This document shows, piece by piece, positions 4,995 through 32,053 of a DNA stretch of 64,000 bases. The DNA lies in the NCBI GenBank assembly GCA_025057015.1, contig JANWYG010000021.1, forward strand, positions 62,001 to 126,000, written 5' to 3'. The position numbers and the translations under genes are program-made. The notes below the pieces were generated by a model. That model had not been told where the DNA came from and did not search any database. It worked only from the letters and a program-made list of their open reading frames with translations. Source of the stretch: Blastocatellia bacterium. Lineage in GTDB: Bacteria; Acidobacteriota; Blastocatellia; Chloracidobacteriales; JADJPF01. How positions within the stretch are numbered: the stretch's first letter is position 1; each line of letters begins with the position of its first letter.

Positions 4995-5741
4995 GTGAAC
5001 AATATAGAAGCTCAGATCATAGAGGACATACTTACCGACGCTGACTTGTTTCTCAAGTATAAAATGTACGGTCGCGCTATCGCTGAGCTGACCCGATGGA
5101 TAGAACGCTACCCCAGTAACTTCGATTTAAGATGGAAACTTGCAGAAATCTATCTTGAACAGCGGCTACCGCAGGCTGCAGCAGAGCAGATGGTAGCTGT
5201 AGCTAATCTCTACGTAAGCAACAAGCAATTTGACCTTGCAAGAGCAGCTCTTTACAAAGTACGCGAGATCTATCCTACAGCACCACAGATAGACGTGTGG
5301 TTAAAGTCCATAGATGACTACGAGAGAAGCCTTGCCCAAACTCCGTCGTCACAAACATATTATCAAACTGAAAGTAGCACTAGTCAGCGCAAGAAATTTA
5401 TACTCGAAGGAGATCTTAGATACATTAGCTTGTTTGATATAGTCCAGACTATAGAGAAAAACGCTCTAACCTGCATCCTAAGCGTCAGCGGAGAGCAAGT
5501 AAGAAGCATCTACTTTAACAACGGAATAATCGCCGATGTTGTGTTCGACGAGCTGCGAGGCAAACAAGCTTTCAAACGCTTCGCAGAAACAACCGAAGGC
5601 AGGTTCACCATAGAGAAGTCTCCCGTCGAGTTTCAGTCAGCCATAGGAGCTACATCTAACGCGCAGCTAATACTTGAAGTCTTTGCTGATGAGGAAGAAG
5701 AACCCGTTGCAGAAAATGAACAGCTTGAATCTAGCATTTAG
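4995..5741 (+). CDS. TPR-PATAN (DUF4388) signalling protein
   Basis: A 248-residue cytosolic protein. Residues ~15-110 hold two to three TPR-like helical pairs (YGRAIAELTRWIERYPSNFD, FDLARAALYKVREIYP). A Gln/Ser/Thr-rich linker leads to a PATAN/DUF4388 domain (~132-225) with the typical FILEGDLRYISLFDIVQTIE opening and the IYFNNGIIADV strand-turn. PATAN domains are known as partners of receiver and GTPase-control proteins in polarity, motility and phototaxis, and this is one of three PATAN genes here. The start is GTG after GAGGTGAG. The C-terminus is very acidic. Partner unknown. Confidence 0.78.
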   Translation: MNNIEAQIIEDILTDADLFLKYKMYGRAIAELTRWIERYPSNFDLRWKLAEIYLEQRLPQAAAEQMVAVANLYVSNKQFDLARAALYKVREIYPTAPQIDVWLKSIDDYERSLAQTPSSQTYYQTESSTSQRKKFILEGDLRYISLFDIVQTIEKNALTCILSVSGEQVRSIYFNNGIIADVVFDELRGKQAFKRFAETTEGRFTIEKSPVEFQSAIGATSNAQLILEVFADEEEEPVAENEQLESSI

Positions 5742-7756: not shown

Positions 7757-8669
7757 TCATAGCAGCTACTGATAACAGTACGTACGAAGCCCAAAGTGCG
7801 TCCGCCAAAGCTAGATGTATTAGCTGTAGCCACACCGGAGCAAGTAGAGCAACGTTTACTAGGCCCACAAATATCTGAACAAGCACAAGAAGAACCGTTA
7901 TCCATAAAAGCCACCTAAGCTCGCTACGGCGATCGTCACGCACCATACCTATAGCAAATAACGAAACACATAGCCCAGCAACCACTGCTGCTATAGGATG
8001 CCAGATGCGCAACTTAACGAACAGGTGTGAAGCGGGAGAAAAATCCTGCGCTATCCCTTCGGCAAGCGATCGTGCAGGGAAAAGCGTATCTCCAAGCGCC
8101 GTTATCGCACCACTCACTCCGACCAAAACTAACATAAGCACCCCTACGGCCGCCATAACTGCAGTTTGCAGCTTCAAAGTAACTACAGAATCGGGATAAG
8201 TAACAAACCAGGCCGTCAACGCCAACGTAGCTACTAGCAAAAAGGTATTTACTAAATGCACAGAAAGATAAGCCGCACGCATCATCGAGGTATCGTTACC
8301 GACAAGCCCTAAAAGCACCAGTCCCGCACCTATGGCGGCTTCAGCTAGGATAAAAAAGACTGACGCGAAAGCCGCTCCGCGAGCCAACCGCGTCGGAACT
8401 GAGCGGTAGACCCACCAGGCCAAACCAAATACTAGTAGAAGTGCCAGACCGCTCGTGCTTCTGTGCGTAAACTCTATCAAAGTCTGCATCTGCGGCGAGC
8501 GAGGTACCACTTCGCCATTGCAAAGTGGCCAGTGGCTGCCACAACCAGCACCAGAGCCCGTCGCTCTAACATAAGCTCCCCAGACTATAACACCAACGTT
8601 ATAGATTAAAACTAACCAGCTATACTCAACTAAATATGGCTTTCTCAGACCTATTGCCGTTGCTGACAT
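7728..8669 (-). CDS. ctaA: Heme A synthase (COX15/CtaA family)
   Basis: This integral membrane enzyme oxidises the C8 methyl of heme O to the formyl of heme A, the cofactor of aa3-type terminal oxidases. The 313-residue sequence has about eight membrane segments. The heme-ligand histidines are visible: His69 in EFTHR with the conserved Glu66, then His in SVHLVN, IWHPIAA and LIHLALAD. Cys43 and Cys50 (GCGSHWPLC) match the extracytoplasmic cysteine pair of Bacillus-type CtaA. It implies aerobic respiration. The start overlaps the preceding gene by 19 bp, and the end overlaps the convergent S9 peptidase by 29 bp. Confidence 0.92.
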   Translation of the reverse strand: MSATAIGLRKPYLVEYSWLVLIYNVGVIVWGAYVRATGSGAGCGSHWPLCNGEVVPRSPQMQTLIEFTHRSTSGLALLLVFGLAWWVYRSVPTRLARGAAFASVFFILAEAAIGAGLVLLGLVGNDTSMMRAAYLSVHLVNTFLLVATLALTAWFVTYPDSVVTLKLQTAVMAAVGVLMLVLVGVSGAITALGDTLFPARSLAEGIAQDFSPASHLFVKLRIWHPIAAVVAGLCVSLFAIGMVRDDRRSELRWLLWITVLLVLVQIFVGLVNVALLAPVWLQLIHLALADALWASYVLLSVAAMTNRPSLQTL

Positions 8670-9631
8670 CTGCCCTTTCTCCTGGTACTAGTATAATAAG
8701 TGACTACACAGACTACAAAAGCCACCACAAAAGCAGCAGCAGAGACAGCCACTGGCCGAGCCTGATAGGCCGGCGACAGTTGATCACCTAGCACCTCATA
8801 AAATCTAGCCACGTCAAGCAGATAACCGGAACTCATAAGTAGCATACTTGCTAAGCTCGGAACCAACAGTGAAAGCAATTTCTTGCGAAGAAAATGATAA
8901 ACAAGTAGCGTACCTGAAATGGCAACCACAAAAGCCGCAGCAGCAGCAACATAGCTTAACCGCAGCAAAGGAGGAATACTTCTGCGTACCGTCAACGCTA
9001 TGTTCTGTTGAGGCAGCTCGTTCCAAGCTCCTACCAGCATATCCCTGCCTCGCTCCAGAGGCAAGCTGCAGCTTCCTTCCCAACCTACCGGTAAGTAAAC
9101 ATATAGATCAAGTCCATTATAAGAGCTCCATCCGCGAGCAGGAGCAAGAACATAACCTAACTGCCAAAAAAGCGTGACAGCGTCTGTTACACTAACACTC
9201 GCCTCAGCATCGTACCTTACAAGTAACTCATGTCTGCCGGTGGGAACGGTCAAACTGAAAGTTAAACCCTCAGTTGGCAGTCGCACAGAGTAGTATAGAG
9301 GCGGGGAAACTCCTACGCCCGGCGTAGTATCTGAAGGGCGAAAATCAAGTGGTAGAGGTAGTAATCCTTTCTCCAACTTTACAACAACACCGTCGAATGT
9401 CACTACAGCGTTTTCAGCAGCTAGCCAAAACCGCCGCTCTACAGGCCCGCCACTATTTGCTAGTCTATACCTTGCCTCAATCTTTACCTTATTCGAATCG
9501 CTAGCCAACCCTCTTAAGTCTATGTTCAGAGTCTCCCGCTCTACAGCTATTTGCGTGAATTCGCCAAAAAGCTCCCCTACAGCAAAAGTAGCTTGCTGTA
9601 AAGCAAAAACAAGAATTAAAGCAAGTAACAT
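8651..9631 (-). CDS. Membrane-anchored exported protein upstream of ctaA, function unknown
   Basis: A 326-residue protein of no family I recognise. The N-terminal hydrophobic run MLLALILVFALQQATFAVG acts as a signal peptide although it lacks basic residues. Residues ~30-215 form a soluble, beta-rich extracytoplasmic domain (EARYRLANSGGPVERRFWL and other interface-protein-like strands). Three hydrophobic segments follow (~225-250, 255-275, 290-315), ending in a basic tail RRKGRCQQRQ. The stop lies 19 bp inside ctaA, so the two are translationally coupled. A role in oxidase assembly or heme handling is a guess from position only. Confidence 0.7.
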   Translation of the reverse strand: MLLALILVFALQQATFAVGELFGEFTQIAVERETLNIDLRGLASDSNKVKIEARYRLANSGGPVERRFWLAAENAVVTFDGVVVKLEKGLLPLPLDFRPSDTTPGVGVSPPLYYSVRLPTEGLTFSLTVPTGRHELLVRYDAEASVSVTDAVTLFWQLGYVLAPARGWSSYNGLDLYVYLPVGWEGSCSLPLERGRDMLVGAWNELPQQNIALTVRRSIPPLLRLSYVAAAAAFVVAISGTLLVYHFLRKKLLSLLVPSLASMLLMSSGYLLDVARFYEVLGDQLSPAYQARPVAVSAAAFVVAFVVCVVTYYTSTRRKGRCQQRQ

Positions 9632-9729: not shown

Positions 9730-12700
9730 ATGGACCAAAAACAAATAGCACACGCAATCTCCGATTTTTCCTTATTTCTCTCCGGGCAAAAAGCACCCGC
9801 ACTGGTAGCACAGTCACTTGCCACAGTAATAAACCTTGATATGTCTGAAATATGCAAGATTGTCTTCAACTGGGCATACCGCAACCCTAACCTCTCGCTG
9901 CCTGAAGCAGTACTTGCAGCCCGAAATAAGGTCTTCGATATATTCTTTTACAGAATAACTAAATTTGAAAAAATCCATAAATTCTTCCCTGAATTCGAGA
10001 AGGCACTTATAGCAAGCTGCACGTTCGAGGAAGACCGTGCCCAACTAGCCTACCTGTTTCAGACCTACCGTTGGCAGGACATCCGCCCGATAGGACACAT
10101 TCGCGACCAGCAGCAGTTTATGATGGAACTACGCAAAAGTGTCTGCGTGCAAACTGAGCAGTTTAACGAGGATATATATAAACACGCCACTTTTAACTTA
10201 TTGTCAGTAAATAAATATCAATTCGACAACGAACAGGTAGCTAGCAACGTCATAGGCTATCAAACAAAACTAAAAGCAATATTTAATGACTTCGTCGAGC
10301 TAGTAGACGACAAAAAGCTTAAGCAGGAAATCCTGCTAGCTAACGAAGCCGATCGTAACAACGTATACGAGCAAAAACAAAGGTTTAAGCCCGAAGAGTA
10401 TCTGCTACACATGACCGACATGGCTATAGCACTGTTCAACGATGATTTCCTACAGCAGGCAGCGCAGATATTTTCAGTAATTCAAGATCTAGTTCGAGAT
10501 CACAAACTCAAGCTGAAAAGCATCGCTAAATTCCAAGAAAAAGGCAACCTATTAAATCACCAAAAATTAGAAGACTATGCTAACACTCGTGTCGGTTGCT
10601 ACCTAGTAAGGCAGATAATACGGCACCTCGAGATGTTCGATCCGGGACTAATGCTGATGCAACTTCAGATAGAAGAAAGCCGTCGCGTAAGACGCTTGCT
10701 CCTAAAGGCGCTTGAATGCTATGGACAACAGATTTATGGAACGCTAGTTTCTGAACTCTCCGGCAAATACCATCAAGTGCCTTGGTACTACAACAGAAAT
10801 TTGGTTTATCTGCTAGGTCGAATCCCCTGCTCTAACGCGCAATACGCAAATCAAGTAGTAGAACTACTTGACATGCTATGGCAACCAAAAACTGAGCGAC
10901 AACTAGTCACTCAGATAATCAGTACTCTGGGTTTCATAGGCACCCCTGCTGCCTGTGACAAGCTAATAGCCCGCCTCAAAACGCTCGAACCAAAGTATGA
11001 AGACGATCCCCAAATTCAAGATTACTGTAACAAAATAGCTCAAGCACTAATAGCTACGGAACAGGAAAAGGCACTAGAAGTGGCAGTAGACTTCTGCATA
11101 AGACAAGAGATTCTTGGACAGTTCCAAGAAAAGTTCAGATGGATCTACTTGCCAGAAGGCTTCGTTCGTTCTTGTATAAACAAAATACGCAAAGAAATTC
11201 AACGCATAAAACTATCTTTTTCCCTACTCGGTGACAAACAGATAGCCCAAGAACTATTGCATGTCATCTCGCACATGCGCACGCCTGAGGTGATACAACT
11301 ATGTCAAGAGATACTGAAGACTGTATCAAAAAAGACCAAACTAGCATCCGAAGCCGAGCAGGTACTTCAAGATGTTCCACCAATGAAGCTATACAGCCCC
11401 GATCATATCTTGCAAAAGCTTGCAATCACTAGAAACGTGCCGGAAATGATCTGCCATATAGCCGAAACCGGAGCAACTGGGGAATTAACGGTTATCACCC
11501 AAAACGCAGAATGCAAAATACAGTTTCAGCGAGGTGACGCTATCTCAGCTACAGTGCCTAATTACTTTCTTGAGCGTGAGGATGCCTTCTATTGGTGCTT
11601 CATTCTGAAACCGCAAGACGTATGCGAAGCATACTTCCAGCCGAGCAATACTTATCAGACAGAGCCACAAATTTTGAAACCTATGGAGCTACTGCTCTCT
11701 GAAGCCATAGCTCAGCGAGAGACTGTACATCAAATAGCCGCAAACTACTTAGCTCCAGACTCACGCTTCAAACGCAAGTCCGTCAACCCTGTATACACTA
11801 ACTTCAGAAATACTGAAAACCCAGAGCAATACTCCCTTGTATGGCAATCACTCTCTGACACTGTCGACCTTGATACTCTTGCTCTCAGAACCAGACTACC
11901 AAAATACGAGCTTTACAAGATACTGCTTTATTTCGTTAAACGAAACATGCTGCAGATCGAGGGACAAGCAGACCTGCAAAGCCTCGTCAGCTTACAAGAA
12001 GGCTTGTCAATGACTACGCTCAACCTCAGCCGTATAGAAAAGCGCCCCGTACTGTTTAACCTCTATAAAGCTACAGCAGAAATTTGCTCCGATCTAGCAA
12101 ACAAAACACAAGACGAGGTAGTAAAGTTTGCCCTCAACGTATTGCGCAAATACCTACTTGACTACTATACCAACCGAAAAGTTTTAGCAGCTGCCGAGCT
12201 ACAAATATGCAACCAGGCTATTTCTTTACTTGCTTCCTACATCCACTTGCAAACGAGCGAAGCAAAAGATGAACTTCTGAACTTCATCAAGTTCAGCTTC
12301 GAAGAAGAGGAAGTATCGCTACGACCTGAGCCTGCCATTCCAGAATCCCAAGTCCTACCAACTAACACGGTTGAAAAACTAGAAAATATAGCCGAGCTAG
12401 ACAGCTCGTTTTTAGAAGAGGATATCGAAGGTATGTTTAGCGCACTCGACAGCGTGCTCGGCTCGGCCTTAGGCCATAGTGAAGTAGAGTCACAAGCTGG
12501 CAGCGAAGGTCAATGGTCAGGCCTTACTGAATCCGAAGAAGCGATGATCAAAGATCTTTTCGACAACATAGCGCTTGCCTATGTCAAACCCCTCAAAGAC
12601 TTTATTCGTGAACTGTATCGAAACTCTGAACAACAGCGGCCTACATCACTTGAATGGTACGAAATGATAGAACCAATCTTTACACTACTTTCAGGCGCCT

Positions 12701-13425
12701 CTGCAAGAATGGGCTACAAGAGCATAGCCGAAGAAGTCTCTAAAATGGAACAAATAGTAAAGCAACAAGTGAAACTCGCTCAAGAACAACAGCGCGACAG
12801 CTTCCTTCCCGAAGCTGCCTATCCCATAACAGAAGCTTACCAAAAACTGTGTGAGTTACAGCCAAAGACCTTCGCCCTATTGGTTTCTGAAGAAGACTTA
12901 GCAGATAGAAAAGATGCACTGATAGTTAAGTTCATACTCAAACAAGTACCGGATATGACCGATAAGCTGCTCAGCAAGATACTTTTTGCAGGACTAAACA
13001 GCTTTGACAAATTCATGCAAACCCGGCCAGACGAAATAGCAGCTCTTACAGGTACGAGCAAGGAAATAGCTAACGACATAATGGAAAAGTTCTACCATTA
13101 CCGTAAGGTATACTACAAAGACAGCCCAGATTTCTGGGAAAGCTACCTATCAATGTTTGAGCTCAATCTCAACTTGCTCAGAGAGATACAACTTGAAATC
13201 GAGCTGCTTAGTGGCAAAGTTACCAGCGATGAAGAAATTTCCAAGACTATCGAGAAACTCAATGCTGACCGTCAGCGAGCGCTATGGTCGCTCTTCATAC
13301 TGCTATGCATACGCGAGGAATATGATCTAATAGAGACAATACAACAATCAATCTTTGAAGAAAAACTGCAGCTTCTCGATCAGTACTATGCAGAGCTACT
13401 AAGCTCACAGGCTGCCGCTGCCTAA
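9730..13425 (+). CDS. Giant helical-repeat PATAN (DUF4388) scaffold with C-terminal helix-hairpin-helix
   Basis: A 1231-residue cytosolic protein with no enzyme motif I can see. Residues ~1-540 are almost all helical, with HEAT-like pieces near 350-430 (VTQIISTLGFIGTPAACDKL). About 560-660 is a PATAN/DUF4388 domain (GATGELTVITQNAECKIQFQ, then QRGDAISATV). About 700-755 is a winged-helix-like module of the kind that often follows PATAN (LDTLALRTRLPKYELYKILL). About 937-1020 is a four-helix-like segment. About 1073-1127 resembles helix-hairpin-helix DNA-binding or dimerisation motifs (FAGLNSFDKFMQTRPDEIAA). It is expressed divergently from the ctaA unit and overlaps the convergent HAD gene by 21 bp. 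Function unknown. Confidence 0.75.
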   Translation: MDQKQIAHAISDFSLFLSGQKAPALVAQSLATVINLDMSEICKIVFNWAYRNPNLSLPEAVLAARNKVFDIFFYRITKFEKIHKFFPEFEKALIASCTFEEDRAQLAYLFQTYRWQDIRPIGHIRDQQQFMMELRKSVCVQTEQFNEDIYKHATFNLLSVNKYQFDNEQVASNVIGYQTKLKAIFNDFVELVDDKKLKQEILLANEADRNNVYEQKQRFKPEEYLLHMTDMAIALFNDDFLQQAAQIFSVIQDLVRDHKLKLKSIAKFQEKGNLLNHQKLEDYANTRVGCYLVRQIIRHLEMFDPGLMLMQLQIEESRRVRRLLLKALECYGQQIYGTLVSELSGKYHQVPWYYNRNLVYLLGRIPCSNAQYANQVVELLDMLWQPKTERQLVTQIISTLGFIGTPAACDKLIARLKTLEPKYEDDPQIQDYCNKIAQALIATEQEKALEVAVDFCIRQEILGQFQEKFRWIYLPEGFVRSCINKIRKEIQRIKLSFSLLGDKQIAQELLHVISHMRTPEVIQLCQEILKTVSKKTKLASEAEQVLQDVPPMKLYSPDHILQKLAITRNVPEMICHIAETGATGELTVITQNAECKIQFQRGDAISATVPNYFLEREDAFYWCFILKPQDVCEAYFQPSNTYQTEPQILKPMELLLSEAIAQRETVHQIAANYLAPDSRFKRKSVNPVYTNFRNTENPEQYSLVWQSLSDTVDLDTLALRTRLPKYELYKILLYFVKRNMLQIEGQADLQSLVSLQEGLSMTTLNLSRIEKRPVLFNLYKATAEICSDLANKTQDEVVKFALNVLRKYLLDYYTNRKVLAAAELQICNQAISLLASYIHLQTSEAKDELLNFIKFSFEEEEVSLRPEPAIPESQVLPTNTVEKLENIAELDSSFLEEDIEGMFSALDSVLGSALGHSEVESQAGSEGQWSGLTESEEAMIKDLFDNIALAYVKPLKDFIRELYRNSEQQRPTSLEWYEMIEPIFTLLSGASARMGYKSIAEEVSKMEQIVKQQVKLAQEQQRDSFLPEAAYPITEAYQKLCELQPKTFALLVSEEDLADRKDALIVKFILKQVPDMTDKLLSKILFAGLNSFDKFMQTRPDEIAALTGTSKEIANDIMEKFYHYRKVYYKDSPDFWESYLSMFELNLNLLREIQLEIELLSGKVTSDEEISKTIEKLNADRQRALWSLFILLCIREEYDLIETIQQSIFEEKLQLLDQYYAELLSSQAAAA

Positions 13426-14265
13426 CCACCCGGGCACCTCAGCAAGTGAAGCAAGTACATCCACATCCTGCCTAGTAATCTCTAGCACCCACTGAGGCGC
13501 ATACTGTCGGCGAAGCAGCGCTATCTTTGAAGGGGCAAAGTCTGCTCCTATGCTCCTTAGATACATCGGCAACGCTAGATCCAACGAAAACACGTCACCT
13601 ATGACGGCATCGGGCCGCAGCCTTTTTAGCACTTCAAAGTAGTAAGGCCTCTGCAATGCTACCCGTGCAGAATTAAAGTTCAAATACTCTGGCAACTGCT
13701 GACACTCGCCAAGGTGAAACTTGCGTGCCCCACCAACTATTTCGACTCCAGTAAGATCTATACAAGCGTCTTCAAATAGATCAACTATGTGATCTACCTT
13801 CGAGTTAGAAACTATAGTTAACCTGTGATTAGCACTACGCAAGCGATCTATCACTTCGGCAGCTTCAGGCACCAAAAGTGTCGAAGATAGCTTACGAAAT
13901 GCAGCGCGCCCTTCTCTAAAGCACATATCCGCTAGCTTTTGAGCATCTCCAGCAACCTTACTAATAGCAGCTTTCAGAACGTCTAAATCAGGGCATTGGA
14001 TACCCGACCATATACAACTTGCCAGAGCATGATTACGCCCATACAGATCCTCGCCAGCAAATGCTGCAATACGCCCGCCAAACTCCCAGCCAAAAGCAAA
14101 CGGTTCAGCAGAAAAACGCTGCTCGATAACAGCGAAGTTTTCCTCCACTCTATCAACACTTAAACCAGAGGTATCGGCTAGTTTTTGAGCCATAAAGCGG
14201 CGTATATAGTCTGCTTCAGGTTGCGGATCCGTCCACACGCCATCAAAGTCAGATACAAGGTGCAT
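13405..14265 (-). CDS. HAD-superfamily hydrolase-like protein
   Basis: A 286-residue protein with the HAD fold. Motif I SDFDGVWTD carries the nucleophile Asp6 and acid/base Asp8. Motif II is the Ser of LTIVSNSKVDH. Motif IV looks like IGDVFSLDLA. A large helical cap is inserted between motifs I and II (~25-125). The final position of motif I is Trp-Thr-Asp, not the commonest DxDGT/V-L form, so it fits no subfamily I know. It is likely a phosphatase or phosphotransferase on a small phosphorylated metabolite. The gene ends inside the convergent PATAN scaffold gene (21-bp overlap). Confidence 0.72.
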   Translation of the reverse strand: MHLVSDFDGVWTDPQPEADYIRRFMAQKLADTSGLSVDRVEENFAVIEQRFSAEPFAFGWEFGGRIAAFAGEDLYGRNHALASCIWSGIQCPDLDVLKAAISKVAGDAQKLADMCFREGRAAFRKLSSTLLVPEAAEVIDRLRSANHRLTIVSNSKVDHIVDLFEDACIDLTGVEIVGGARKFHLGECQQLPEYLNFNSARVALQRPYYFEVLKRLRPDAVIGDVFSLDLALPMYLRSIGADFAPSKIALLRRQYAPQWVLEITRQDVDVLASLAEVPGWLGSGSL

Positions 14266-21169: not shown

Positions 21170-24100
21170 ATGTTACTCTTACTTGCCATATTGATACTCC
21201 AGACAGGTTTGGACAAAGATAGCGAAACAGAAAAGCTGAAAAAAGAAGCTGAACAACTAAATGAGCAGGTTATACAACTTTACAAAGCAGGAAAGTACGA
21301 TGAAGCTATCCCATTAATACAACGAGCGATAGAAATAAGAACCACAATACTAGGGCCGGAACATCCTGATACTGCCTATTCGATCAATGACCTGGCTGAA
21401 CTATATTCAGCAAAAGGTAATTATGAACAGGCTGAAAAATTACATAAACAAGCTTTGATAATTAGAGAAAAAACTTTAGGATTACATCACGAACTAACAA
21501 TTTTATCCATGATGAATCTAGCAAAATTGTTTTCAATGAAGGGTAACTATGAACAAGCAGAACAATATGCTACACAAGCTCTTAGAAATTGTGAAGAATT
21601 TTTAGAGTCAATAAAAAATAAGCCAACACATATCAAAAATATCAGGAATGTAAAAGCAACTGCTCTCAATGAGTTAGCAGTCATAAACTACCACAGAGGC
21701 TTTTACAGTAAGAGTAAGGCCGAAGCATTATTTCAATTAGCCTTTCAAACAGCCCTAGAAATCCGCCAACAACACACTCCAGCTTTATCCCATCAACCCA
21801 ACACTACACAGACTGTACGGATTGATCCTGCACAGTTAACTGCACAGTTATCTAACAACCTTATCGCGGTATGCATTGCTAGAAGTGATTATACCAAAGC
21901 TGCACTTTACGCCGCAGAAGCAGTAAAACTATACGAGCAAACTTTTGGTAAAGAGCATCCACAAACCGGCTTATTACTTAATAACGTTGCAATGATCTTC
22001 TTCAACAAAGGCGACTATTCTAAGGCCGAAGAAAACTATCTCGCTGCTCTTGAAATATATAGTAAGACTTTTGGTATGGATAATATAAACACAGCGTTAG
22101 TCACAAAAAATCTGGCCGCTTTATATATTGACAGGGGAGATTATATTAAAGCAGAAAATTTTATACAACAAACTCTGAATATATATGAAAAAACGCTAAG
22201 TAAAACACATCAAGATTACATCCTATTGCTCAATAATCTTGCCATGCTATTTCATGCTCAAAAGCAATTTGATAAGGCCAACACACTACTAAGCGAAGCC
22301 CTTCAACTATGTAGACAATCCTTAGGCTCAGAGCATCCTCTCACTGCTACTGTCTTGAACAACTTAGCATACGCCATCGTACACAAAGCAGATCCCGATA
22401 CAGCAGAGCCCTATGCTACTGAAGCTTTTGAAATACGCAAGCGCGTCTTAGGGGACAATCACTCAGAGACTGCTATAGCACTAAATACTCTAGCTGCCAT
22501 CTACTTCAAACAAGGCAAGTACAACAAAGCCGAAGATACTTTCAAAAAAGCTTTACATATCCAGGAAGAACTAGTAGAAGCTGATCACCCTCGGACTATC
22601 CGTATACTTAACAGTCTCTCTACAGTGTATAGAGCAATGGGACAACTTGATCAAGCGCTCGCGTATAAAGAGTTAGCTGATATGCATAGAGAAAATAACT
22701 TGTCAATCATATTAAAAACCGGATCAGAGAGACAAAAGTTCGAATATCTTCAACTCAGTTCAGAAGAGTTAGACCAGACCATATCACTAAATATAGTCTC
22801 ATTACCCAATGATCTAAAAGCTACGCAGCTTGCACTGACCAGCATACTTCGCAGAAAAGGGCGCGCTCTAGATGCTATGATCGATGCCTACTCAGCCATC
22901 CGAAGCCGCGGCAGCAAGCAGGATCTTGAAATACTAAACAAGCTGACTGACGCAAGAGCTAAATATGTTACGCTCACCATGAATGCACAAAACAAGCAGC
23001 AAGCGAAGGCTATGCTGCAGCAGATAGAAAGTCTAGAAGAAGAGATCAGCCGTCGCAGCATAGAAGTCAAGCTGCAAACTGCTCCCGTTACATTAACAGC
23101 AGTACAGCAAGCCATACCACAAGGTACAACGCTGATAGAATACATAGCCTATACTCAAATCGACGATAAAGCCCAGAACAGAGTCAGAAAGTACGCAGCT
23201 TATTGTCTAGACAACACTCATTCACCTAAAGTGATAGACTTAGCTGACCGTGAATTGATAGACGCAGCTGTCGAACAGTTCCGACTGGCTCTTCATGACC
23301 GCAAGAAAGATGCTCGTCCTGCTGCAAAACAACTCTACAAACTTATCTTTGCACCAGTACAAACACTTCTTGGCAAGCATAGACGACTGCTAATATCACC
23401 TGATGCCGCATTAAACCTAGTACCTTTTGAAGCATTAGTTGATGATCATAGCAAATATCTAGTACAAAGCTACGATATATCCTACCTGACTAGCGGCAGA
23501 GACCTACTGAGATTCACTAGCAGGATACAAAGCGAGAGTGCGCCCGTCATAATAGCCGACCCAGAGTTCGGTATAGGCAGTGGGCCTAGGATCGGCAGCG
23601 AAGAATTTGAGCCTCTACAACGACTTACCGGTACGGCCAAAGAAGCTGGATTTCTAACGCAGCTACTGGATACTCATAAGCTACTCAAAGGAGAAGCAGC
23701 AACAAAATGTGCCCTAGCAGAGATAAGAAGACCTTCACTGCTACATATAGCTACGCACGGATTCTTCTTGTACAAACAACAAACAGCCCAGCAATCTGGA
23801 TCCCGTCTAGCTGTTAGAAAAACCCAGGTCAAAGATCCGGTTAACGAATCAAATCCATTACTACTTTCAGGGCTTTTCCTTGCAGGAGCAAACAAGTCAT
23901 CAGATGGCGTGATGACCGCTTTAGAAATAGCAGGGCTAGACCTCTGGGGAACTGCCCTAGTAGTCTTATCTGCTTGTGATTCCGGTCTGGGAAAAATTCA
24001 AGAGGGCGAGGGAGTATATGGCCTAAGACGCGCACTAGTGTTAGCAGGTGCTCAAGCACAGATAATTAGTCTCTGGATGGTCTCCGACGAAGGTACCTCA

Positions 24101-24298
24101 GAGTTGATGAAGCTTTACTACAGAAATTTATTTGCAGGCAAGGATAAACTTTCGTCGCTACGCAAGGCGCGTTTAGCTTTGCTGCGCACAAAACGCTACA
24201 ACCACCCCTACTATTGGGCAAGCTTTATTTACTCCGGCGATATTTATTCCGGAAATTTGACAAATTTCTCCAAAGACACAATATCTTCAAGGTTCTAA
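21170..24298 (+). CDS. TPR-CHAT protein (caspase-like peptidase family)
   Basis: A 1042-residue protein. Residues ~30-520 are about ten kinesin-light-chain-type TPR repeats of ~42 residues (YDEAIPLIQRAIEIRTTIL, HPDTAYSINDLAELYSAKG and so on). A helical linker leads to a C-terminal CHAT domain (~640-1030). The expected His-Cys dyad is intact: His863 in HIATHGFF and Cys936 in LSACDSGLG. CHAT proteins are cysteine peptidases of the caspase/separase clan and serve in signalling, cell death or defence. The N-terminus MLLLLAILILQ could be an atypical signal peptide. No partner gene is adjacent, so the target is unknown. A good promoter precedes it. Confidence 0.85.
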   Translation: MLLLLAILILQTGLDKDSETEKLKKEAEQLNEQVIQLYKAGKYDEAIPLIQRAIEIRTTILGPEHPDTAYSINDLAELYSAKGNYEQAEKLHKQALIIREKTLGLHHELTILSMMNLAKLFSMKGNYEQAEQYATQALRNCEEFLESIKNKPTHIKNIRNVKATALNELAVINYHRGFYSKSKAEALFQLAFQTALEIRQQHTPALSHQPNTTQTVRIDPAQLTAQLSNNLIAVCIARSDYTKAALYAAEAVKLYEQTFGKEHPQTGLLLNNVAMIFFNKGDYSKAEENYLAALEIYSKTFGMDNINTALVTKNLAALYIDRGDYIKAENFIQQTLNIYEKTLSKTHQDYILLLNNLAMLFHAQKQFDKANTLLSEALQLCRQSLGSEHPLTATVLNNLAYAIVHKADPDTAEPYATEAFEIRKRVLGDNHSETAIALNTLAAIYFKQGKYNKAEDTFKKALHIQEELVEADHPRTIRILNSLSTVYRAMGQLDQALAYKELADMHRENNLSIILKTGSERQKFEYLQLSSEELDQTISLNIVSLPNDLKATQLALTSILRRKGRALDAMIDAYSAIRSRGSKQDLEILNKLTDARAKYVTLTMNAQNKQQAKAMLQQIESLEEEISRRSIEVKLQTAPVTLTAVQQAIPQGTTLIEYIAYTQIDDKAQNRVRKYAAYCLDNTHSPKVIDLADRELIDAAVEQFRLALHDRKKDARPAAKQLYKLIFAPVQTLLGKHRRLLISPDAALNLVPFEALVDDHSKYLVQSYDISYLTSGRDLLRFTSRIQSESAPVIIADPEFGIGSGPRIGSEEFEPLQRLTGTAKEAGFLTQLLDTHKLLKGEAATKCALAEIRRPSLLHIATHGFFLYKQQTAQQSGSRLAVRKTQVKDPVNESNPLLLSGLFLAGANKSSDGVMTALEIAGLDLWGTALVVLSACDSGLGKIQEGEGVYGLRRALVLAGAQAQIISLWMVSDEGTSELMKLYYRNLFAGKDKLSSLRKARLALLRTKRYNHPYYWASFIYSGDIYSGNLTNFSKDTISSRF

Positions 24299-30577: not shown

Positions 30578-32053
30578 GTGAAGCAAGAAACGAATACCGA
30601 CATTATTACAGTAAAAGAGTGCCCTTCATGCAATAAGAGGTACGAAGAGACACTATTGCTTTGCCCTACCGATGGCACGGCTCTTGTTACTACTACTTCC
30701 CAGCCTAGCGAAGAGATAAGCCAGTTGCTATCAAACTTAAAGAGCCAGATGCTGAAAGCAGACTTTGCTTCTTTCAACCAAACGCTCGATAAGTTAGCCG
30801 AAGCTTGCCGTCTAGCCAAAGATTACCCCTCTGCCATCCGGTGGACTGCACTTGCAGCCCTGCTGCAGAGCAAGCAAGTTCTTCCACAACTCATAGAGCT
30901 AAACATACTGGCAGGCTACAAAGATGCCGCCCTACGCCAGCTTCGGCTGCTTGCCAGATCTGGAAACACAAGCCAAATAGCGAAATACTTTAACCGCTTT
31001 ATTGCCCTGCAGGCCACAGATCCTGAATGGGTGCAGGAAATTACCTCGATTGCCAACAAACACTCAATATCGCTGTTTGAAGATATACCAGAAATTCCTC
31101 CCGAAGCACTCATACCCATAGAAGAGACTACAGATTCATCACAAGATAAGCTTACAAATATCAAAATAGCAGATGAAACAGACAAACCCGATTTCAGCAA
31201 CATCAAGGTATTGATATTAGTCGAGGACAAAAGCCTATCCGATCTACTTAAAGAACTATTCAAAGAGCTTGGTTGCGCGCTAGTCGAGCCTACTGAGACA
31301 AATCACCTTCAAGCAACCGTGATAATAGCTGATCTAGGCCATCCCAAGCTTGACAAGCTTCGTTCTCAAGCAGCTACATTCGTGCTACTAGCTTCCAAAG
31401 ACGAAGAAACTACAGTCCTCGATGCAGCCACAGTATGGTACAAGCCCTTCAAAACACAAGAACTAGTCGACAAGGCAAAGAATTTATTGCACAAGACAAA
31501 ACTTGCTTCAGAACTCAAAGGTTCATTAAACGAAGTGCCACTTGCAAAGCTACTACGCAACATATCAGCAGAAGAATTAACCGGCGAGCTACGGCTCTTT
31601 CACAAGCTCAGAGCTGGTACCATATTTTTCATCGACGGCAAAGTAGTAGATGCAGTTACAGAAGACCTTTCCGGACACCGAGCAGCTCTAAGCCTACTGA
31701 TAGCTTGTGCCGACAAAGGCCAATTTGAGTTCAGCCCACAGCGGCCGAAACGTCAAATCACAATAAACTCCTCTCTAGAATCACTGCTGAATGAAGCTGC
31801 ATCAAAAGCCGAAGAAGAAACCCGCATAATAGCCACTCTCCCACCAAAAGAAGTGTTCTTATCTGTAGCTACGGATGTCTTGCAGCAAACAAATGATCAT
31901 AGTGACGAACTAATACGTATTTCACAGCTTTTTGACGGCTCGCTCTCTCTAGGGGAGTGCTTAGAAGCCCTGCACGGAGACCTAGAAAGCATAAAGCTAG
32001 TAGCTGATCTTTACAAATCCGGAGCACTTAGGATAGTAAATTTTGGAATCTAA
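30578..32053 (+). CDS. Zinc ribbon - pseudo-receiver - PATAN (DUF4388) protein
   Basis: A 491-residue cytosolic protein. Cys15, Cys18 and Cys29 with Asp32 (CPSC ... CPTDGTALV) form the degenerate zinc ribbon often seen at the N-terminus of acidobacterial regulators. Residues ~45-155 are helical. Residues ~206-307 have the alternating strand/helix layout of a response-regulator receiver (IKVLILVEDKSLSDLLKELF; final WYKPFK as the conserved Lys region), but the place of the phospho-acceptor reads IIADLGH, so the Asp may or may not be functional. Residues ~311-390 are PATAN (GSLNEVPLAKLLRNISAEEL, FFIDGKVVDAV). The start is GTG; an in-frame TAG lies four codons upstream. Partner unknown. Confidence 0.75.
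   Translation: MKQETNTDIITVKECPSCNKRYEETLLLCPTDGTALVTTTSQPSEEISQLLSNLKSQMLKADFASFNQTLDKLAEACRLAKDYPSAIRWTALAALLQSKQVLPQLIELNILAGYKDAALRQLRLLARSGNTSQIAKYFNRFIALQATDPEWVQEITSIANKHSISLFEDIPEIPPEALIPIEETTDSSQDKLTNIKIADETDKPDFSNIKVLILVEDKSLSDLLKELFKELGCALVEPTETNHLQATVIIADLGHPKLDKLRSQAATFVLLASKDEETTVLDAATVWYKPFKTQELVDKAKNLLHKTKLASELKGSLNEVPLAKLLRNISAEELTGELRLFHKLRAGTIFFIDGKVVDAVTEDLSGHRAALSLLIACADKGQFEFSPQRPKRQITINSSLESLLNEAASKAEEETRIIATLPPKEVFLSVATDVLQQTNDHSDELIRISQLFDGSLSLGECLEALHGDLESIKLVADLYKSGALRIVNFGI

Follow-up and report, generated by a model that had tools for sequence, protein, structure and literature searches.

We propose that the large protein encoded at 9730-13425 of the window, by which we mean the whole 64,000-nucleotide stretch that was analysed, probably serves to assemble signalling complexes and not to bind DNA; on our best reading, it would link signalling inputs to cytoskeletal or pilus-type assembly. 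The folds from which it is built are known. The protein family, its clade-restricted architecture and the portable module that forms its tail are new, and the available portions of the literature on the PATAN domain (DUF4388) contain no description of the family. This work defines an undescribed protein family, together with a portable pseudo-HPt/helix-hairpin-helix (HhH) module, in a poorly studied phylum. The gene and its parts, all on the plus strand, are the following.

9730-13425 (+): scaffold gene, 1231 residues, from an ATG start to a stop codon at 13423-13425, with full-length relatives.
9730-10065 (+): N-terminal helical domain, residues 1-112, also carried by PATAN-DnaJ proteins and by HEAT proteins that the same genomes encode, and modelled by AlphaFold2.
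10105-10389 (+): connecting helices, residues 126-220, modelled by AlphaFold2, partly at low confidence.
10390-11370 (+): HEAT/ARM-like alpha-solenoid, residues 221-547, from AlphaFold2 and Foldseek.
11413-11745 (+): PATAN (DUF4388) core, residues 562-672, from profile comparison and AlphaFold2.
11821-11961 (+): winged-helix-like fold, residues 698-744, from the structural model only.
11992-12300 (+): helical domain, residues 755-857, from AlphaFold2, with no match found.
12310-12519 (+): acidic, low-confidence linker, residues 861-930, from AlphaFold2 and a charge count.
12529-12858 (+): four-helix bundle, residues 934-1043, likely HPt-like and without a phospho-histidine, from profiles and AlphaFold2.
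12889-13113 (+): RadA/NusA-type HhH with a degenerate hairpin, residues 1054-1128, from profiles, AlphaFold2 and Foldseek.
13132-13422 (+): long C-terminal helices of the portable module, residues 1135-1231, from AlphaFold2.

An earlier note on this DNA had put forward a single 1231-residue reading frame, and this holds: 1231 codons run open from the ATG, and relatives align over the entire length. Whole-genome searches gave full-length relatives that are 33-52% identical; some relatives are interrupted by contig ends. The family is present in 13 of the 14 genomes of the order, the Chloracidobacterium-like Blastocatellia. Outside the order, two copies were found in one genome from another family of the class, and any part of the protein occurs in only 15 of the 162 genomes of the class; a scan of GTDB contigs gave one partial relative. 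The scaffold family is almost confined to a single order of the Acidobacteriota. Within that order, genome G009 has paralogues of the tail only, and because the scaffold gene is absent there, it must be dispensable in that organism.

No neighbour of the focal gene is conserved across families, and hence the gene's own context names no partner. In the sister family a solute-binding protein or a mannosyltransferase adjoins the gene, an arrangement whose conservation is limited to closely related genera, for which reason the neighbourhood was set aside as a functional clue. Promoter-like sites were also discarded, being no commoner than chance in a promoter/terminator scan. As to the surrounding window, positions 8651-9631 encode a 326-residue protein without a family match, in a gene that overlaps a CtaA/COX15 cytochrome oxidase assembly gene and is divergent from the scaffold gene; a convergent gene for a HAD-like protein (13405-14265) shares 21 bases with the scaffold gene at the latter's 3' end; and a TPR-CHAT protein of 1042 residues is encoded at 21170-24298.

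Searched singly, the sequence matches no model of Pfam or NCBIfam above that model's cut-off, and a PDB search returns nothing over cut-off. The Pfam scores for DUF4388/PATAN (16.1 against 25 bits), HHH_5 (15.9 against 27 bits) and HEAT_2 (15.3 against 27.7 bits) all lie below the curated thresholds, and matches to alcohol dehydrogenase and FAM167 were dismissed as chance by their appearance. No catalytic family is found in the protein with either Pfam or NCBIfam, and the whole chain is acidic (pI 5.2, net charge -35). AlphaFold2 was run on residues 1-560 with an 18-sequence alignment and on residues 541-1231 with 29 sequences (pLDDT 79). The models contain both an HhH and a PATAN core, the two elements on whose presence in a structural prediction the earlier note had staked its reading.

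Residues 1-560 are predicted to form an all-alpha solenoid of stacked helix pairs (pLDDT 85). Its Foldseek matches comprise engineered repeat proteins, importins, beta-catenin and condensin HEAT chains, at TM-scores of about 0.2-0.35, which supports the HEAT/ARM class of fold and no particular family; HEAT_2 reaches at most 17 bits, under its cut-off. The HEAT-like repeats claimed earlier are borne out in this N-terminal half. The first 112 residues, a shared domain that the note did not mention, end PATAN-DnaJ proteins and begin HEAT-like proteins. Among 58 relatives, this domain is seen in just those 15 genomes that carry some part of the scaffold protein, and a PATAN-J protein of the window's own genome (L034) carries a copy.

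The PATAN domain was likewise recognised correctly. Compared with 13 PATAN domains of the same genome, residues 570-663 give an hhalign probability of 92.8% (E 4e-7, 87 columns), and AlphaFold2 places a helix and a four-stranded core at 570-637, with the strands at 584-637, although on their own the DUF4388 scores of 16.1-16.8 bits stay under the 25-bit gathering cut-off. No Response_reg match is present in the focal chain at E 0.1. The genome has 27 PATAN matches in 3.3 Mb, and the window itself encodes two further PATAN proteins, at 4995-5741 and 30578-32053, one of them with TPR repeats.

The weakest of the named elements is the putative winged helix. Here the earlier claim stands in so far as a suitable fold, of three helices and a strand, is predicted at residues 698-744 by the model alone, with one Foldseek match, to the winged helix of RPC39 (probability 0.99 but E 1.3); on the side of sequence, a profile of the segment has no match and finds nothing in the PDB. 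The element is acidic (pI 5.1). As a candidate for the usual companion of PATAN, it was compared with the post-PATAN segments of PATAN-J proteins and of the type-2 partner proteins described below, and no significant similarity emerged. The acidic linker at 861-930 had been absent from the note, as had the four-helix bundle that follows it.

That bundle, at residues 934-1043, is likely, if not proven, to have an HPt-like fold, to judge from profile comparisons. The pooled module profile matches the P1 (HPt) domain of CheA at E 9.5e-5 and the profile of the paralogues does so at 1.4e-3; a profile of the focal branch only gives no CheA match. Against 23 HPt domains of relatives, hhalign gives 82% (P 1e-5), as compared with P 0.2-0.65 for six control helical segments. 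None of the 29 members matches Pfam Hpt, and in all 29 the column equivalent to the phospho-histidine lacks a histidine, being occupied by T, S, N, A, I and others. Should the bundle be an HPt fold, the missing phospho-histidine bars it from the usual kind of phosphate transfer.

The tail as a whole (residues 934-1231: bundle, HhH and long helices) recurs in separate proteins, a portability that the note did not report, and in a tree the focal branch forms one clade (100/100), separate from the proteins that we call type 1 and type 2. In type 1, a module protein with a proline-rich linker is followed by a pentapeptide-repeat protein and then a bactofilin, a three-gene order kept in five genera (the window's own genome, at L068:9082-12214 on contig C8, and four other genera); in G446, from a further family, pentapeptide and bactofilin genes adjoin a module match. 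The type-1 bactofilin is the only bactofilin match in the own genome, and a full-text literature search returned no paper with both 'bactofilin' and 'pentapeptide repeat'. In type 2, the module protein is followed by a REC-domain protein, the two genes overlapping by 4 bases in two Chloracidobacterium-like genomes; this partner is longer at its start in two larger genomes, in one of which it has a weak PATAN-profile match. Type 3 consists of the first half of the module, in a gene flanked by those for an aldehyde dehydrogenase and an ACT protein, next to which lies a BMC shell gene, an arrangement seen in the own genome and one relative; in the own genome (L125:6946-10871, contig C23) the BMC shell, aldehyde dehydrogenase, type-3 and ACT genes stand in a row. 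Elsewhere on that locus, the genes at L125:42-6796 resemble, by eye, a type I-E CRISPR effector set. In one genus of the same family, a 1685-residue protein (L066:7975-13032) has a Ser/Thr kinase, with HRDLKPEN and DFG motifs, fused in front of a full-length scaffold paralogue, and an M50 peptidase/HlyD-like membrane protein (L127:1071-4145) has the initial portion of the HPt-like bundle at its start.

The HhH is the best conserved region of the family, which fits a conserved protein interface. AlphaFold2 places it at 1054-1123. A profile of the focal family by itself matches RadA at E 0.0055 and NusA at E 0.041, and with the paralogues pooled in, the RadA match has E 1.3e-7; Foldseek aligns it with RadA at 2.1 A over 53 columns with a probability of 1.00. 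Each of the 29 members gives a weak HHH_5 match at an E value of no more than 5, the best being 4.1e-9 and that of the window protein 0.011, which is below the curated cut-off, and the module profile recovers NusA-like genes in other Acidobacteriota, one of which (L135) was judged by eye. An HhH had been claimed, and one of RadA/NusA type by sequence and fold is what we find. The make-up of the whole protein had further been taken to suggest a hub between signalling and DNA or the chromosome, and one may picture such a tether, in which the winged helix and HhH touch DNA while PATAN and the HEAT repeats bind signalling proteins. In its favour, most type-2 paralogues keep a GVG or VG hairpin and a basic HhH (pI 9-10). 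In the focal branch, however, PDMTD, SDVTD, PEINE, PECDE or PEVDA stands at the hairpin in place of the GVG of several paralogues. This loss of the GhG hairpin, seen in all focal members displayed, speaks against contact with the backbone. The focal HhH has a net charge of only 0 to +2 and the C-terminal 293 residues one of -14, and the winged helix and the whole chain are acidic; counted from the sequence, charge gives no sign of the basic surface that the note had named as support for DNA contact. On this point charge does not decide by itself, because the HhH of RadA is likewise acidic by this measure. As judged from these sequence features, direct DNA contact by the focal protein is disfavoured, and we regard a chromosome tether as quite improbable. 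Of the proposed hub between signalling and DNA, the link to signalling finds support in the kinase gene fusion and the neighbours of the paralogues, and the link to DNA is not supported. Within a single gene family that can be traced, the HhH-type domain looks to have changed its use, from contact with nucleic acid to contact with protein.

It is possible, if rather doubtful, that the protein regulates type IV pili or polarity, its PATAN domain binding the pilus motor ATPase and the remainder positioning it so as to steer surface motility. Published work describes PATAN as acting on the pilus motor (PMC10519157; PMC7690835) and, in Synechocystis regulators, as contacting PilB (PMC10519157), and the own genome has 12 T2SSE-family ATPase matches above cut-off beside its 27 PATAN matches. 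Yet the focal PATAN lacks the REC partner of the Synechocystis regulators, the genes next to the focal gene and the conserved neighbours of its orthologues include none recognised as a pilus gene, and PATAN is so numerous in this genome that most copies must serve other roles. The N-terminal domain suggests a co-chaperone adapter, in which this domain docks and the scaffold passes HEAT-bound clients to a J-protein and DnaK: the same domain ends PATAN-J proteins that have the HPD motif, in the own genome as well, and PATAN too is common to the scaffold and the J-proteins. A common domain need not imply a common complex, however, and the neighbours of the J-protein genes (adenylosuccinate lyase, M16 peptidase, a glycosylase and a metallo-beta-lactamase fold) indicate no common pathway; we consider this explanation far-fetched.

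We incline, if only slightly, to a cytoplasmic, non-enzymatic scaffold in which the tail is the assembly part and PATAN and the solenoid hold signalling partners. The unnamed, non-enzymatic hub of the earlier note agrees with the lack of a catalytic family, the long solenoid, the PATAN domain and the kinase-fused paralogue. In such a scaffold the solenoid and PATAN would bind client or signalling proteins, and the C-terminal module would serve as an assembly or address part, anchoring each carrier protein in a larger cytoplasmic structure. The HPt-like bundle may serve, with no phosphotransfer involved, as the docking site for a partner, for instance a receiver domain, and the degenerate HhH would contact protein and not DNA. 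By analogy with PATAN regulators of the pilus motor and with bactofilin adapters, the output would likely be the spatial organisation of a signalling complex. Every binding partner of the scaffold is one that we infer, and the association with bactofilin and microcompartment genes belongs to the module paralogues, not to the focal protein. A bolder extension, which we think unlikely, would make the tail an addressing module, distributed over several acidobacterial branches, by which a kinase, PATAN/HEAT hubs, receiver partners, companions of bactofilin and of microcompartments, and an M50 peptidase are connected to organising structures of the cytoplasm; in such a clade-specific network for spatial signalling, the focal protein would be the largest hub. 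With the scaffold hypothesis, a path leading from signalling proteins to bactofilin, microcompartment or pilus structures can be put to the test.

We would place the scaffold among several known systems, each of which it resembles in part. Like the cyanobacterial regulators PatA, PixE and PixG, it has a PATAN core and probably acts through protein-protein contacts in signalling, but it has no REC domain, and its PATAN sits inside a scaffold of 1231 residues that also has HEAT-like repeats and ends in an HhH tail. Its four-helix bundle resembles the HPt domain of CheA in sequence profile near the active helix, and likely in fold, whereas the phospho-histidine is replaced in all 29 members. Its HhH has the same small fold as those at the N-terminus of RadA/Rad51 and the C-terminus of NusA (HHH_5), agreeing to about 2 A over about 50 residues, but in the focal branch lacks the GhG hairpin and has no attached ATPase or KH domains. 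A long alpha-solenoid is likewise common to HEAT/ARM scaffolds, although that of the focal protein shows neither global superposition nor membership in a sequence family. Finally, PadC of Myxococcus is described as an adapter between bactofilin and ParA (PMC5703909). Although the focal protein has no detected ParB-like domain and its gene does not lie beside a bactofilin gene, the two share a non-enzymatic adapter logic, and a paralogue of the tail module is itself encoded next to a bactofilin.
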